From assembly GCA_947631085.1 (NCBI GenBank), contig CANRJY010000008.1, forward strand, positions 1-64,000: a DNA stretch of 64,000 nt, in the 5' to 3' direction. Below, one piece after another: positions 51,615-58,685 of this stretch. This DNA is from an uncultured Clostridia bacterium (GTDB taxonomy: Bacteria; Bacillota; Clostridia; UBA1381). Every line of letters begins with the position of its first letter. Position 1 is the first letter of the stretch. A model generated the notes under the pieces. That model made no database searches. It worked only from the letters and a program-made list of their open reading frames with translations, and was not told where the DNA came from. The position numbers and the translations under genes are program-made.

Positions 51615-51652
51615 AGAGGGGCACTAAAATTTTAGTGTCCCTCTTAGTTTTT
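51615..51652. terminator. bidirectional terminator
   Basis: AGAGGGGCACTAAAA / TTTTAGTGTCCCTCT with a T-tract, between the SSB-like gene and the convergent CAP-domain gene. Confidence 0.88.
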
Positions 51653-53496
51653 TAATAAATTTGAGTTATCGCTTCCTCGATAGGCTCGCTGTTTTTATCC
51701 CATATCATATATTTATAATTCTCCGATTCCGGCAATTCGCATACCGAGCTTATTATGCCGTCAGCTACATCGGAATTATCACCTATTTTTACTTTGACAA
51801 GACGCATCTCGCTGTCATATTCCGCAAGGATAAGCTTTAATCCATTAAGCCTTTCATCGGCATCGGCTATCATAAATGTTATTTTTCCGTCACTGATCGT
51901 CCACATAAGCGCATGAGTCGGCGACGACGTCGGCGTTAAAGTAGGTGTCAATGTCGGCATTGGTGTCACTGTCGGCGTTAATGTAGGCATTGGGGTAGGT
52001 GTCGGTGTCGGTCTTGGTGTTGGCGTCGGTCTTGGTGTTGACGTCGGCGTTGGTCTTGGCGTTGGCGTTGGCGTCGGTCTTGGTGTTGGCGTCGGCGTTG
52101 GCGTCGGCGTCGGTCTTGGTGTTGGCGTCGGCGTCGGTCTTGGCGTTGGCGTCGGCGTCGGCGTTGGTGTTGGCGTTGGTCTTGGCGTCGGATTTACCTT
52201 CCAGCGCGCATAAAGTGTTAAATCGCTTGTTACCGGCGCATCGAAATTATAGCTTCTTGTCAGGTTTTCATCAATGTACCAACCGACAAAGCTGCAGCCC
52301 TCCATTGTCGGATCGGTCGGTTTTGCGACCTTCGAGTTGCCCTTTACTGTCTGATCCTCTATTTTGCTTCCGCCGTTTGTTTCAAATTTTACGGTGTATG
52401 TTTTGGTCGCCTCCAAATCAAAGAAGTTCACATCATATGTCAGCTCGGTCGGAGAACCGTCCGCACTGCTGTATATTCCCGAAATATTGACGGTAAATGT
52501 CTCTCCGTCGGCAATCGTTCCGAGCGAGTTTATGTCCGGTCTGAAAACGATCGCCTTTGACATGCCGTAATTATCATTGTCCACGGCGAGATGCAGGCTG
52601 CTGTCCGATAAGCCCGTTTCGCCCAAATTCGGCGTGTTCTTGTCAAATACCCACTTTTTTCCGTCGCTCGCACGCGTAAGCGTTATAACAAGACTGTTCT
52701 TATCGGGCGCTTTGTACGGATATCCCAAATTGATGCTCCAAGCGCTTTCGATCGGGCTAGATATATCGGTATCGGCGGCAAAATATTGAATCGGAAACGC
52801 GCCCGCCGAGGGCCACGCCACATATGAATCAAATCTGTTGCCGTAAACCTTTGTCGTACCGAATACATGCATATTTATTCTGTAACCGCTGTAGCTCGCG
52901 CCGGGATTTTGCGCGAAGCCTATACCGAAATTCTGATTTTCAGCTTTGATGATCCATCTTCTGTGTCCGACGCTCTCAATGTTGCTCACGCCGTTATCAA
53001 ACATAAATCCCAGCACCGCCGAGGATATGTTTGACCTGCCCGCGGAAATATTCGCCTCGTTGCAGCCTTTATACGCAATTTCAAAAAAGCTGTCAGGCAT
53101 ATCGGCGGGCTGCGTCGGATAGTGATCAAACTGATTTGACGCCGCAAGCAAAACCGCGCCGTGCTGCGCTATTTCGTTAAGCTCGGGCAGAAAATCCGTT
53201 TCCTCATACGGAACTCCTGCAAGATATCGCACTACTTTCATCGCGTTTTTCGCGTCGTCTATATCCTCCTGATCGAGCGAGCCGGCGCTGTAAGGCGTGC
53301 TGAACACGGGAGCCGTGCTGTAGCGCGTCACCTTTCGGCTGTTAAACCCGCTGTGCGGATACTGTTCGATTATTGAGTTTATTTCTTCTATTGTGTTATC
53401 ATGTTTTATTTCGATGCCCGCTCCGAAAACCTGCGGCTGCGCGCATATGCCGAAAACCGCCGCCGAAAGCAGCATCGAAGCAATTCTTTTTTTCAT
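51652..53496 (-). CDS. secreted CAP-domain protein with InlB B-repeat and Pro/Thr stalk
   Basis: 614 residues: signal peptide ([25 protein letters not shown]), CAP/SCP-like domain (about 75-370; [29 protein letters not shown]) and one InlB B-repeat ([44 protein letters not shown]). A long [12 protein letters not shown] stalk follows, then a C-terminal module ending [22 protein letters not shown], similar to the BspA-like protein's end. It is a surface protein, substrate unknown. The stalk is encoded by tandem GGCGTTGGTGTC-type DNA repeats liable to length change. Confidence 0.88.
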
Positions 53497-54628: not shown

Positions 54629-55381
54629 CTACCGCCTTATCTGCCGTCCGGCGTGATCAATTATGAAATTATCCTTATATATCAGCTCGGATACCGTTAC
54701 CGGTTCATATTTTTCGCACAGAGTTTCCAAAATTTTCGGCAACACCGCGGCTGTGCTGTCCGTGCCGTTATGGAGAAGAATAATATCGCCGGCGGCCGTT
54801 TTCGAAGTGGAGCGCTCATATATGGACTCGGCGTCCGCGCCTCCGTAGTCGATGCCGTCAACCGACCATTGTATATACGTCCTTCCGCTTTCCTCGCATG
54901 CTTTTATCACGGCGTCGTTATAGCCGCCTGACGGGGCGCGGAACAAATACGGCTTTTCCCCCGCCGCGCTCTCCACCGCCAAATCGCATTTGTCCATATC
55001 GGACAGCATATCTTCCCTTGAGAGCTTAGTATAGTCCGCGTGGTTATATGAGTGATTTCCTATCTCGTGTCCCCTTTCACGGATTTTTTCGAGACTGCTT
55101 CCGTATTTTTCCGCCCAGTCGCCCGTGACGAAAAATGTCGCACGGCAGTTATACGCGTCAAGCGTATCGAGAATACTGTCGATATCGTCATTGTTCCAGG
55201 CGCAGTCAAAAGTCAGAGCGATTTTGTTATCATCGCGCTCTACACTGTAAATCGGAATTTCCCGACCGTTTACCGTGAATACCGACGCTGTTTTATTCAT
55301 GGCAAAAAATAAAATCGGAACCGCTATAACCGCCGCGGCGGCTATAGCCAAATGCTTTGCGCGCACCACAAAAAAAGTCAA
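54629..55381 (-). CDS. polysaccharide deacetylase (NodB-fold, PdaB-like)
   Basis: 250 residues: an N-terminal membrane anchor (LAIAAAAVIAVPILFFAM) and a NodB homology domain. Motif 1 is KIALTFDCAWNNDD (Asp pair), motif 2 HEIGNHSYNHADYTKLS (HxxxH zinc ligands), motif 3 LFRAPSGGYND, and the last motif IILLHNGTDSTAAVLPKIL. It removes acetyl groups from peptidoglycan or related polymers outside the membrane. Size and anchor resemble sporulation-associated PdaB, but the role is not proven. Confidence 0.92.
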   Translation of the reverse strand: MTFFVVRAKHLAIAAAAVIAVPILFFAMNKTASVFTVNGREIPIYSVERDDNKIALTFDCAWNNDDIDSILDTLDAYNCRATFFVTGDWAEKYGSSLEKIRERGHEIGNHSYNHADYTKLSREDMLSDMDKCDLAVESAAGEKPYLFRAPSGGYNDAVIKACEESGRTYIQWSVDGIDYGGADAESIYERSTSKTAAGDIILLHNGTDSTAAVLPKILETLCEKYEPVTVSELIYKDNFIIDHAGRQIRR

Positions 55382-55446: not shown

Positions 55447-55920
55447 CTACAGAAGCCACGACGGCAGCGCGGAGGATTTGTTTTTCTTCTCCTCCCGTTC
55501 TTTTTGTGTCCCCGAAGTTTTTTGTGTCCCCGATTTTCTCGCGGTATGATTAGCTCGTTTTACTGTCCCCGATTTTATAAGCTCGAGCTGCTCGCGCTTC
55601 TCGTCCTCGGTTTCTATCGGCACGCTTAAAAATCTGCCGCGAAACAGTTTGCCATCCGCGCCGTGAGTTTTATTAAAATATCGGGCATAGCTTGTCGTGA
55701 GCGGCTTCATCGTCATTGAAATGCCGTCTTTTCCTTCCTTCACAACAAGATCAATTTCGGTTTTTTCAAGATTTATCCCGTAGATCTCGCCCGTTTCGAA
55801 GTATTTTTCCGCCATTTTTCGAAATGTTTCTTTGTCCGCGTCATCCTTAAACAATTCCTCTCCGCGCAGCGTCACGCGGTACATGCCCGATTTACTCAGC
55901 TCTCTCGCCTGTCTTGCCAT
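55447..55920 (-). CDS. RAYT-like (REP-associated transposase family) protein lacking the HUH motif
   Basis: 157 residues. The frame of a Y1/IS200-like REP-associated transposase is plain: MARQARELSKSGMYRVTLRGEELFKDDADKETFRKMAEKYF at the start, LTTSYARYFNKTHGADGKLFRGRFLSVPIETEDE later. Where the family has GNHVHLL, this protein has KTEIDLVV, so both metal-binding histidines are gone. The C-terminal tail (SGTVKRAN, KSGTQKTSGTQKE) comes from GGGGACA repeats running through the gene's 3' end. It may be a domesticated DNA-binding protein or a decaying copy. GGAGG site at the start. Confidence 0.75.
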   Translation of the reverse strand: MARQARELSKSGMYRVTLRGEELFKDDADKETFRKMAEKYFETGEIYGINLEKTEIDLVVKEGKDGISMTMKPLTTSYARYFNKTHGADGKLFRGRFLSVPIETEDEKREQLELIKSGTVKRANHTARKSGTQKTSGTQKEREEKKNKSSALPSWLL

Positions 55921-55994
55921 TTTTCTTACCTCCGTTTTCCGTAATATATCGACTTCATCGTCACTTTATACTTATATTTTAACACAAAATCCAC

Positions 55995-56021
55995 GGGGAC
56001 ACAAAAACATTTTTATGTCCC
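55995..56021. repeat. REP-like inverted repeat upstream of the RAYT gene
   Basis: GGGGACA, 14 bases, TGTCCC. The same GGGGACA word occurs three times in the 3' end of the neighbouring gene (55507-55515, 55525-55533, 55564-55572). Confidence 0.6.
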
Positions 56022-56126: not shown

Positions 56127-58685
56127 ATGCAAACATACCACGACCTTACAATAAAAGAAACGGAAGAAAGGCTCGGAACCGATACAAAAAACGGGCTGAG
56201 CGCCGCAGAAGCCGAAAAACGTCTGAAAAGCTTCGGGCGCAACGAGCTTAAGGAGAAGAAGAAAAAGGGCATTTTTCGGCTGTTCATAGAGCAGTTCAAC
56301 GACTTTATGATTATCATTCTGCTGACGGCAGCCACTGTGTCATTTCTCACGTCGCTGATGCAGGGAGAAGCTGATATTACGGAGCCTGCAATCATTCTCG
56401 CAATCGTTGTGCTCAATTCTCTTTTGGGCTGCATTCAGCAGCGGCGCGCGGAAAAATCGCTCGAAAGCTTAAAAAAGCTGTCATCGCCGCATGCGCATGT
56501 GATCCGAGGCGGACGCGAGATAGTTATAAACGCCGCCGAGGTCGTACCGGGCGATATCGTAAAGCTCACAGCGGGCGACCTTGCGGCAGCCGACTGCCGG
56601 CTCATAAGCTCCAATAATCTCACCGTTGACGAAAGCTCTTTGACCGGAGAATCCATGAGCGCCGAAAAAAGCGCATCTGAAACTCTCAGCCGCCTTACCC
56701 CGCTTGCGGAGAGGCGCAATATGGTTATGTCCTCCACGTCAATTACCGGCGGAAACGGCATGGGTATCATTGTCCGGACAGGTATGGACACGGAAGTGGG
56801 ACAAATCGCGTCCATGCTGCTTGACAGCGAAACGCCGCAGACGCCGCTTCAAAAGCGGCTTGCCGATACGGGCAAAATTCTCGGAGTAGCGGCGCTGCTC
56901 ATATGCTGTGTGATATTTCTTATCGGAATTTTAAAGCATCTGCCGCCGTTTGATATGTTTATAACCTCGGTTTCTCTTGCCATAGCCGCAATTCCCGAAG
57001 GACTGCCCGCGATCGTCACCATAATGCTCGCGATAGGCGTAATGCGCATGTCGAAGCACAACGCCATTGTCCGCAATCTCCCGTCTGTCGAAACGCTCGG
57101 CAGCGCGTCCGTAATTTGTTCCGACAAAACAGGCACGCTTACGCAAAATAAAATGACGGTTACGGATATATATTCAAAGGATGAACTGCTGACCCTGCGT
57201 CTCGGAGCGATGTGTTCCGACCTGGAAGGCAATCCGACGGAAAAAGCGATTATAAATGCCGCCGCCGAACGGGGCGTCTCCAAATCTGAGCTTGACCGAA
57301 AAAAGCCCCGCATCTCCGAGATACCGTTCGACTCGACCCGCAAGCGTATGGCGACTCTCCACCGCGACGTTCACGGCACGACCACTATCGTCAAGGGAGC
57401 CGTAGAATTTGTTCTTCCGCTATGCAGCAGATTTTTTAACGGTCAAAAATCCGTTCCGATATCGGGAGCGGCAAAGCGGAAAATACTGGCTGAAAACGAT
57501 AAAATGACATCCTCGGCGCTGCGCGTTATCGCTGTAGCGTACAAAACCGGCGCAGACAGTAAAAATCCGACGGAAAACAACCTGATTTTTGTAGGTTTAC
57601 TCGGCATGCAGGATCCTCCGCGCCCCGAAATCGCCGAAGCCGTAAGGGTGTGCCGCCGCGCGCGGATACGTCCCGTTATGATAACCGGCGACCACGCCGA
57701 AACGGCGTTTGCGATAGCGCGTCAAACAGGAATCGCTCAGCTGAAAAGCGAGGTCATAACAGGCGCGGAGCTTGACTCAATGTCCGATGACGCCCTTAGA
57801 AAATGCATCGGCGGCTACAGCGTTTTCGCAAGGGTCACGCCGTCGCACAAGGTTCGAATCGTCAAGGCTCTTCAGTCTAACGGCGAGATCACCGCGATGA
57901 CCGGAGACGGCGTAAACGACGCGCCCGCGCTGTCGGCCGCCGATATAGGCTGCGGTATGGGCGGCGGCACGGACGCGGCAAAATCGGCTTCGGATATGAT
58001 TTTAACGGATGACAATTTTGCCACCATAGTATATGCCGTCAAAGAGGGGCGCGGAATTTTCGTGAACATAAAAAAGGCGGTCCAATTTCTGCTTTCAAGC
58101 AATATCGGCGAAATCCTTACGGTTTTTTCCGGCATTGTTTTCGGCTGGAGCTCACCGCTTACGGCAATTCAGCTGTTATGGGTAAATCTTGTAACTGACT
58201 CGCTTCCGGCGATAGCGCTCGGGCTCGACCCTTGCGGCGACGATATTATGCAAAAACCGCCCCGACCGCCCAAAAAAAGTATGTTTGCAGACGGTCTGTG
58301 GGCTGCCATAATTATTGAAGGTCTTATGGTCGGCGCGTTGGCTCTGCTTGCCTTCTCCATCGGAGCAAACGTGTTCGGCGATATAACCGTCGGCAGGACG
58401 ATGTCGTTTGCGGTACTCAGTCTTTGTCAGCTCGTCCATGCGTTTAATATGCGCAGCGAAGGTTCCGTATTGGGCGCGGAGCTTTTCAAGAATCCGTACC
58501 TTCTGCTTTCGCTCGCAATCGGAGCGGTAATGGAAACAGCGGTTATAATGCTGCCGCCGCTTGCTAAAGTATTCAACGTCGTTTCGCTCGGATGTATACA
58601 ATGGGCAATAGTCGCCGCGCTGTCCGTAATGCCGCTTATCATTGTGGAAATTCAGAAATTCGTAACGTATTTGTTTAAAAAGTAG
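56127..58685 (+). CDS. P-type calcium-transporting ATPase (SERCA/PMCA-like)
   Basis: 852 residues, full length. Actuator TGES motif (DESSLTGESMS), helix-4 Ca2+ motif AAIPEGLPAIVTIMLAIG, phosphorylation site CSDKTGTLTQNKMT, nucleotide-binding KGAVEFVL and hinge TGDGVNDAPALSAADIG, then C-terminal helices with LLWVNLVTDSLPAIALGLDP. It exports Ca2+ (possibly Mn2+) at ATP cost. The PEGLPA motif favours Ca2+ over heavy metals. A DtxR-type regulator gene lies downstream in the same direction but has its own promoter. Confidence 0.95.
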   Translation: MQTYHDLTIKETEERLGTDTKNGLSAAEAEKRLKSFGRNELKEKKKKGIFRLFIEQFNDFMIIILLTAATVSFLTSLMQGEADITEPAIILAIVVLNSLLGCIQQRRAEKSLESLKKLSSPHAHVIRGGREIVINAAEVVPGDIVKLTAGDLAAADCRLISSNNLTVDESSLTGESMSAEKSASETLSRLTPLAERRNMVMSSTSITGGNGMGIIVRTGMDTEVGQIASMLLDSETPQTPLQKRLADTGKILGVAALLICCVIFLIGILKHLPPFDMFITSVSLAIAAIPEGLPAIVTIMLAIGVMRMSKHNAIVRNLPSVETLGSASVICSDKTGTLTQNKMTVTDIYSKDELLTLRLGAMCSDLEGNPTEKAIINAAAERGVSKSELDRKKPRISEIPFDSTRKRMATLHRDVHGTTTIVKGAVEFVLPLCSRFFNGQKSVPISGAAKRKILAENDKMTSSALRVIAVAYKTGADSKNPTENNLIFVGLLGMQDPPRPEIAEAVRVCRRARIRPVMITGDHAETAFAIARQTGIAQLKSEVITGAELDSMSDDALRKCIGGYSVFARVTPSHKVRIVKALQSNGEITAMTGDGVNDAPALSAADIGCGMGGGTDAAKSASDMILTDDNFATIVYAVKEGRGIFVNIKKAVQFLLSSNIGEILTVFSGIVFGWSSPLTAIQLLWVNLVTDSLPAIALGLDPCGDDIMQKPPRPPKKSMFADGLWAAIIIEGLMVGALALLAFSIGANVFGDITVGRTMSFAVLSLCQLVHAFNMRSEGSVLGAELFKNPYLLLSLAIGAVMETAVIMLPPLAKVFNVVSLGCIQWAIVAALSVMPLIIVEIQKFVTYLFKK

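Follow-up and report, generated by a model that had tools for sequence, protein, structure and literature searches.

We describe a protein family, here called WLL, that derives from RAYT transposases, is kept by purifying selection and lacks both histidines and the tyrosine of the RAYT active site. As it combines RAYT descent, a dead site, purifying selection and a link to a word containing GGGGACA, its best reading is a nucleic-acid-binding regulator, and we lean towards the view that it is a domesticated RAYT kept for sequence-specific binding of this kind. One such gene lies in the window, the 64,000-nucleotide stretch of DNA from an uncultured Clostridia bacterium analyzed here. The RAYT gene family persists vertically without evident benefit, and dead RAYTs under selection would show what non-cutting RAYTs are kept for.

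Descent and conservation of the WLL protein

Sequence-family searches came up empty: the 157-aa protein had no RAYT match and no meaningful match in Pfam and NCBIfam, the source genome had no match to PF01797, and a profile of WLL relatives had no match among PDB sequences. The RAYT assignment then rested on profile-profile and fold comparison. With hhalign, the short forms of the family matched a canonical RAYT alignment (three canonical forms and one long form) over residues 1-117, with a probability of 99.9 and an E value of 8.6e-33. The AlphaFold model has a core with pLDDT mostly about 90 (blocks 11-100) and values below 50 at residues 119-150. Searching with it in Foldseek returned TnpA_REP (PDB 4er8, TMq 0.61) plus IS200/IS605 transposases at an E value of about 2e-5, and IS200/IS605 / TnpA_REP was the only family below 1e-3. 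Thus, by both Foldseek and hhalign, the WLL protein has a Y1 transposase fold.

A preliminary description of this DNA had proposed a RAYT-type protein that has lost its HUH motif, and both points are borne out: KTEIDLVV stands in place of GNHVHLL in the product, with E55-I56-D57 aligned to the metal-binding site of RAYT / TnpA_REP. Alignment with canonical RAYTs extends the loss to all three residues, both histidines and the catalytic Tyr, the Y...NP motif being replaced by L114...G118-T119. Because the two defining features, HUH and Tyr, are lacking, we place the protein not among the RAYTs proper but in a family derived from them, and this family may act in sequence-specific regulation. Given the loss of the active site, it is predicted not to cleave REP single-stranded DNA.

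Table 1. Features of the WLL gene and its surroundings in the window.
Feature	Position	Strand	Basis or remark
WLL family CDS (dead RAYT-derived protein, 157 aa)	55447..55920	-	ORF; orthologs; core dN/dS
RAYT/Y1-fold core, residues 1-105 (MARxAR...SGxY...GKLFxGRFxSxPxE)	55606..55920	-	AlphaFold, Foldseek, hhalign
Former HUH metal site, now E55-I56-D57	55750..55758	-	Alignment with canonical NHVHLL/NHAHIL
Position of the lost catalytic Tyr (LRYIHQNP), here L114 (ELIKSGT)	55579..55581	-	Alignment with canonical RAYTs
Variable linker, predicted disordered, residues 119-150	55471..55566	-	pLDDT <50; unalignable and length-variable in relatives
Invariant C-terminal peptide PSWLL, residues 153-157	55450..55464	-	P[ST][WY]LL in 22/22 short forms
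Word GGGGACACAAAA, sense to WLL gene	55502..55513	-	
Word GGGGACACAAAA, sense to WLL gene	55520..55531	-	
Word GGGGACAGTAAA, sense to WLL gene	55559..55570	-	Same position in congeneric ortholog
Putative -10 box (TAAAAT) of WLL gene	55976..55981	-	By eye from aligned upstream regions; downstream of TGTCCC half-site
Inverted pair GGGGACACAAAAACATTTTTATGTCCC, between WLL gene and divergent ATPase	55995..56021	.	+ word sense to ATPase
P-type ATPase, divergent conserved neighbor	56127..58685	+	Sequence motifs; next to the gene in several genera of relatives
Polysaccharide deacetylase (PF01522), conserved downstream neighbor	54629..55381	-	Domain match; adjacent in relatives

Homologs were found by tblastn (E<=0.01) in 58 of 101 related genomes, mostly one per genome, with long and canonical forms counted. 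Named relatives are uncultured Clostridia and Oscillospiraceae MAGs, many of them from rabbit gut, and orthologs are spread over one family of gut Clostridia, where their locus is conserved. With one copy per genome as the rule and conserved neighbors, the gene is single-copy and vertically inherited. The order P-type ATPase (divergent), WLL gene, deacetylase is kept in genera g1, g5, g10, g14 and part of g15; next to the long-form gene of g3 the ATPase is found as well. Elsewhere in the window, positions 51652-53496 (-) encode a protein of 614 aa that contains a lengthy run of TPTPTPRP repeats.

The family has two forms, short (about 150-205 aa) and long (about 250-300 aa). The P[ST][WY]LL end of the short forms stands behind a variable charged linker, and all long forms aligned end in LSVWLL. 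Other ORFs ending in a PSWLL-type peptide were absent from the five genomes scanned for them; one candidate, L203, was rejected as its peptide is out of frame. Long forms also lack the first His and the Tyr, which places the loss of catalysis ahead of that of the C-terminal region. RAYTs of the canonical type, with NHVHLL/NHAHIL, LRYIHQNP and an HTH-like region at the C-terminus, are present in the same order and class, one of them in the same family.

The loss of the HUH motif, the Tyr and the C-terminal helix-turn-helix region might be taken to mark a decaying RAYT remnant. That reading is refuted by the pairwise dN/dS of the core, 0.02-0.14 wherever dS was not saturated, by the lack of stop codons inside the tblastn matches, and by a C-terminus that is invariant across about ten genera. 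The N-terminal MARxAR...SGxY residues are likewise invariant in the alignments despite the lost catalysis. The WLL gene is thus kept by purifying selection and is not decaying.

Distribution, orientation and origin of the word

Three copies of TGTCCCCGA, at 55507, 55525 and 55564, run through the 3' end of the WLL gene and an inverted pair lies upstream, all as the preliminary description had placed them. Within the window, TGTCCCC occurs 10 times against 3.5 expected, a count reached by 1 of 100 shuffles, and only the gene-linked words reach the 12-nt form GGGGACASWAAA. As a hairpin, the pair at 55995-56021 has an energy of -14.1 kcal/mol (z -5.2). The protein tail is SGTQKTSGTQKE (translation of 55447-55920(-)), and its SGTQK part, earlier ascribed to the words, does carry them; however, this is merely the word written into the variable disordered linker before the invariant P[ST][WY]LL, which had gone unnoticed.

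The word extends far beyond this locus. Aligned copies give the consensus GGGGACACTAAA(A), with flanks that hold no information, and lie no closer together than 14-15 nt. The source genome has 44 copies of GGGGACASWAAA and none of the reversed control. The GGGGACA words belong to this 12-nt word and are not REPs of the ordinary kind. In genera g1, g5, g9, g10 and g14 the word is abundant, at 14-165 per genome where the gene was found (control 0-3); it is scarce in g15 and in long-form genera, and genomes outside the family have almost none. Median counts are 44 in short-form genera except g15, 4 in genomes with long or other forms and 2 where no homolog was found, with a control of about 1. 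With genomes assigned by hand to protein forms, abundance was associated with the short form, with p 3.5e-10 across genomes and 0.0018 across genera, g15 being the exception; this co-occurrence spans related genera and could therefore reflect shared ancestry. Genus g15 has a short protein without HUH, yet only 1-15 words per genome (L022, L025, L027, L028), which points to an earlier stage of the system or to a network that was later lost. We did not find the 12-nt word in the literature searched.

Words were also found in the WLL genes themselves. At <=1 mismatch, 17 of 22 short-form genes, from word-rich genera or their relatives, carry words in their own sequence (26 sense, 0 antisense), against a background of 0.027 per gene. 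They lie over the start codon in g14 and in linker codons in g1, g5 and g10. GGGGAC repeats stand beside all four canonical HUH RAYT genes examined (L055-L058), inverted on both sides in three (GGGGACGG...CCGTCCCC and similar) and on one side only in L057. As the canonical RAYTs are flanked by GGGGAC REPs, the GGGGAC specificity looks inherited, and its recognition is plausibly ancestral. Two of these canonical genes (L056, L055) lie among many GGGGAC repeats, of the GGGGACGGTTCTGTGTCTT and GGGGACGTACACAAATTGTCAAC families.

Orientation was scored from the stretches around the sites. A codon model blind to the word itself scored 131 words as sense and 16 as antisense (p 1e-23), in related genomes that are not independent. 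It was applied because an ORF-based count (145:24 sense:antisense overall, 28:6 between co-oriented genes) rested on rough ORF calls that placed some words in the wrong context. Since sites were searched on both strands, the bias does not stem from how the regions were chosen. Inverted pairs account for several of the antisense words. A cluster that is truly antisense lies at L129 (G022:C1, 2822-2939), where four consecutive words oppose a cobB/cobQ-like gene, of a group, the cobalamin genes, that carries sense words in other genera. This exception aside, the words lie mostly on the sense strand of the candidate targets and of the family's own transcript, as sites of a regulator acting on transcripts would. 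A replication-strand bias was considered and rejected, the word orientation at L159 following that of two genes which lie 9 kb from each other on the same contig and face opposite ways.

The origin of the words could be traced in the cobalamin operon, where substitution and insertion could be told apart. In the source genome this operon carries 17 words (stricter form) in 15.5 kb, of which 16 are kept exactly in the congener G001 (87% identity), compared with 37% of all 11-mers. Where just one of the two genomes has a site, the alignment is free of gaps (GGAAACGCTTAAG / GGGGACACTAAAA; GGCGATGATAAA / GGGGACACTAAA), and these words therefore arose by substitution rather than insertion. The operon also carries words in g5 and g14, mostly at positions other than those of g1, and the U32/DUF3656 peptidase has 2-7 words in g1, g9 and g14, mostly at different places. 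Thus, the cobalamin operon and the U32 peptidase are conserved targets with turnover of sites. Of the words classified, the majority stand singly or in tandem inside genes. Words often cover the Shine-Dalgarno sequence and start codon (GGGGACACTAAAATG); leaders hold them in tandem, and where genes converge they form inverted pairs in which each half is sense to its own gene. A role at the protein level (GDTK or GTLK peptide) was rejected, as words occur in all three codon phases, and no signal of selected RNA accessibility was detected around the words.

These results bear on the possibility that an active RAYT, or the WLL protein, has spread the words as REPs or REPINs. Some words do form hairpin-forming inverted pairs in intergenic regions, and GGGGAC REPs accompany the clade's canonical RAYTs. 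Nonetheless, we hold this to be very unlikely: REPs are intergenic palindromes carried by insertion, whereas the words are largely intragenic and sense-biased, their gap-free gains in the cobalamin operon largely refute insertion, and the WLL protein lacks the catalytic residues. Moreover, no PF01797 protein was detected in the word-rich genomes G000, G001, G005, G019, G022 and G032, which are incomplete MAGs, so no active RAYT appears to be needed to maintain the words. The gene had been pictured as still embedded in its repeats, with the nearby palindromes as potential targets. This picture gives way to another: words lying largely in other genes, gained without gaps, on the sense strand and better conserved than their surroundings indicate that the targets are mostly transcripts or transcribed regions, among them the cobalamin operon, the U32 peptidase and the WLL gene.

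Ways in which the word may be read

Judging from sequence comparisons, the WLL protein probably binds the word, and if it does, recognition in RNA is the likelier case over double-stranded DNA. The core of the earlier suggestion, a dead RAYT kept as a regulator, is well supported, with RNA a likelier ligand than the DNA it had named. In the mechanism we propose, the ancestral GGGGAC specificity would be retained through the conserved N-terminal MARxAR...SGxY part, and the GGGGACACUAAA word would be bound in transcripts (more likely) or on the non-template strand during transcription. Several bound copies may repress translation or alter the fate of the transcript. In one genus, g14, the word over the gene's own start codon could provide feedback, with repression there, and the PSWLL end on its flexible tether may recruit a partner. 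We put forward only tentatively the fuller proposal of a class of post-transcriptional regulators in which a catalytically dead Y1 transposase (RAYT) reads a 12-nt sense-strand word in tens of transcripts, with words evolving by point mutation of coding sequences. Against the proposed mechanism stand the few words in g15 and the long-form genera, the lack of a signal for selected RNA accessibility, and the antisense cobB-like cluster of G022, which a strict mRNA model leaves unexplained. Were the word read in RNA, a Y1 transposase would have become an RNA-binding regulator, a case of which we found no description in the literature searched. The word, its targets and their turnover, traceable across dozens of genomes, would amount to a fully readable regulatory code.

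Binding to double-stranded DNA, with the word as an operator or polar roadblock and the sense bias as polarity towards RNA polymerase, seems to us unlikely though worth weighing. It would fit the inverted pairs between convergent genes, as two-way blocks, and the antisense cluster in cobB of G022. It would also fit the upstream region of the WLL gene, where the TGTCCC half of the inverted pair is kept in most relatives with the divergent ATPase and, in many, lies between the presumed -35 and -10. However, this TGTCCC is missing wherever the ATPase is missing in the relatives checked (L016, L018, L019, L030) and may therefore be a word of the ATPase leader. It would suit an operator, and equally a sense word of that leader; we dropped the claim of a conserved autoregulatory operator, confounded as it is with the divergent ATPase. 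The 131:16 bias and the words over start codons are explained more simply by RNA, and the binding of single-stranded REPs by RAYTs (PMC8266576) also counts against double-stranded DNA.

The words may instead be sites for another factor, such as some other RNA-binding protein or a small RNA whose seed would be UUUAGUGUCCCC, the WLL gene being merely one target. We regard this as improbable. A long, near-exact 12-nt word without conserved flanks would suit base-pairing, and g15 has the protein without many words; on the other hand, the core of the word is the REP core of canonical RAYTs, word abundance tracks the short protein form, and an Rfam search of six loci found no known RNA family.

DNA uptake sequences are short intragenic words created by substitution, with inverted pairs between convergent genes. 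Substitution-born words within genes and inverted pairs as terminators recall them, so that the words could be uptake or Chi-type genome signals to which the protein is unrelated. This we consider very unlikely. Uptake signals are dense and independent of particular genes and of the direction of transcription; the words number just 14-165 per genome, far fewer than uptake sequences, are clustered in particular target genes and are oriented with transcription.

Resemblance to known systems

With RAYT / TnpA_REP proteins such as E. coli TnpA_REP (PDB 4er8), the family shares the fold, the N-terminal MxRxAR...SGxY, single copy number, vertical inheritance and an association with GGGGAC repeats. 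The short form differs in lacking the His pair, the Tyr and the C-terminal HTH region and in adding a disordered linker and PSWLL, and its words differ from RAYT REPs in being sense-oriented, substitution-born and largely intragenic. The canonical HUH RAYTs of the clade (L055-L058) have the same core and adjoining GGGGAC repeats; unlike the WLL gene, with its one upstream pair and three internal sense words, they have intact active-site motifs and flanking REPs that form inverted repeats around the gene.

CsrA/RsmA-type translational regulators bind GGA-containing sites over the Shine-Dalgarno sequence and start codon, several per mRNA, and regulate their own synthesis. The words resemble such sites in placement and in number per mRNA, as would the autoregulation proposed here, but the WLL protein has an unrelated fold and its site is a near-exact 12-nt word. 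TldR proteins, derived from TnpB, have been described as RNA-guided transcription factors (PMC13418256). Like them, the WLL protein has lost catalysis, and it would likewise have retained nucleic-acid recognition and been reused for regulation; TldR, in contrast, belongs to a different superfamily and is RNA-guided, whereas WLL has no known guide RNA.

Some further loci carry words of note. In G056, HypD, an adjoining AIRS protein (HypE-like) and HydF have 3-4 words each (L154, L159). Along with the cobalamin genes and a nitrogenase-like gene (L178, antisense), these hint at a metal-cofactor theme. Between two genes of the related species G022 and G029 (L130 and L143), paired words occur, the second over or just before the start codon of a TsaE-like ORF. 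Finally, comparison of L104:11990 with L106 revealed matched G-to-A and C-to-T changes on both halves of an inverted word pair in two species.
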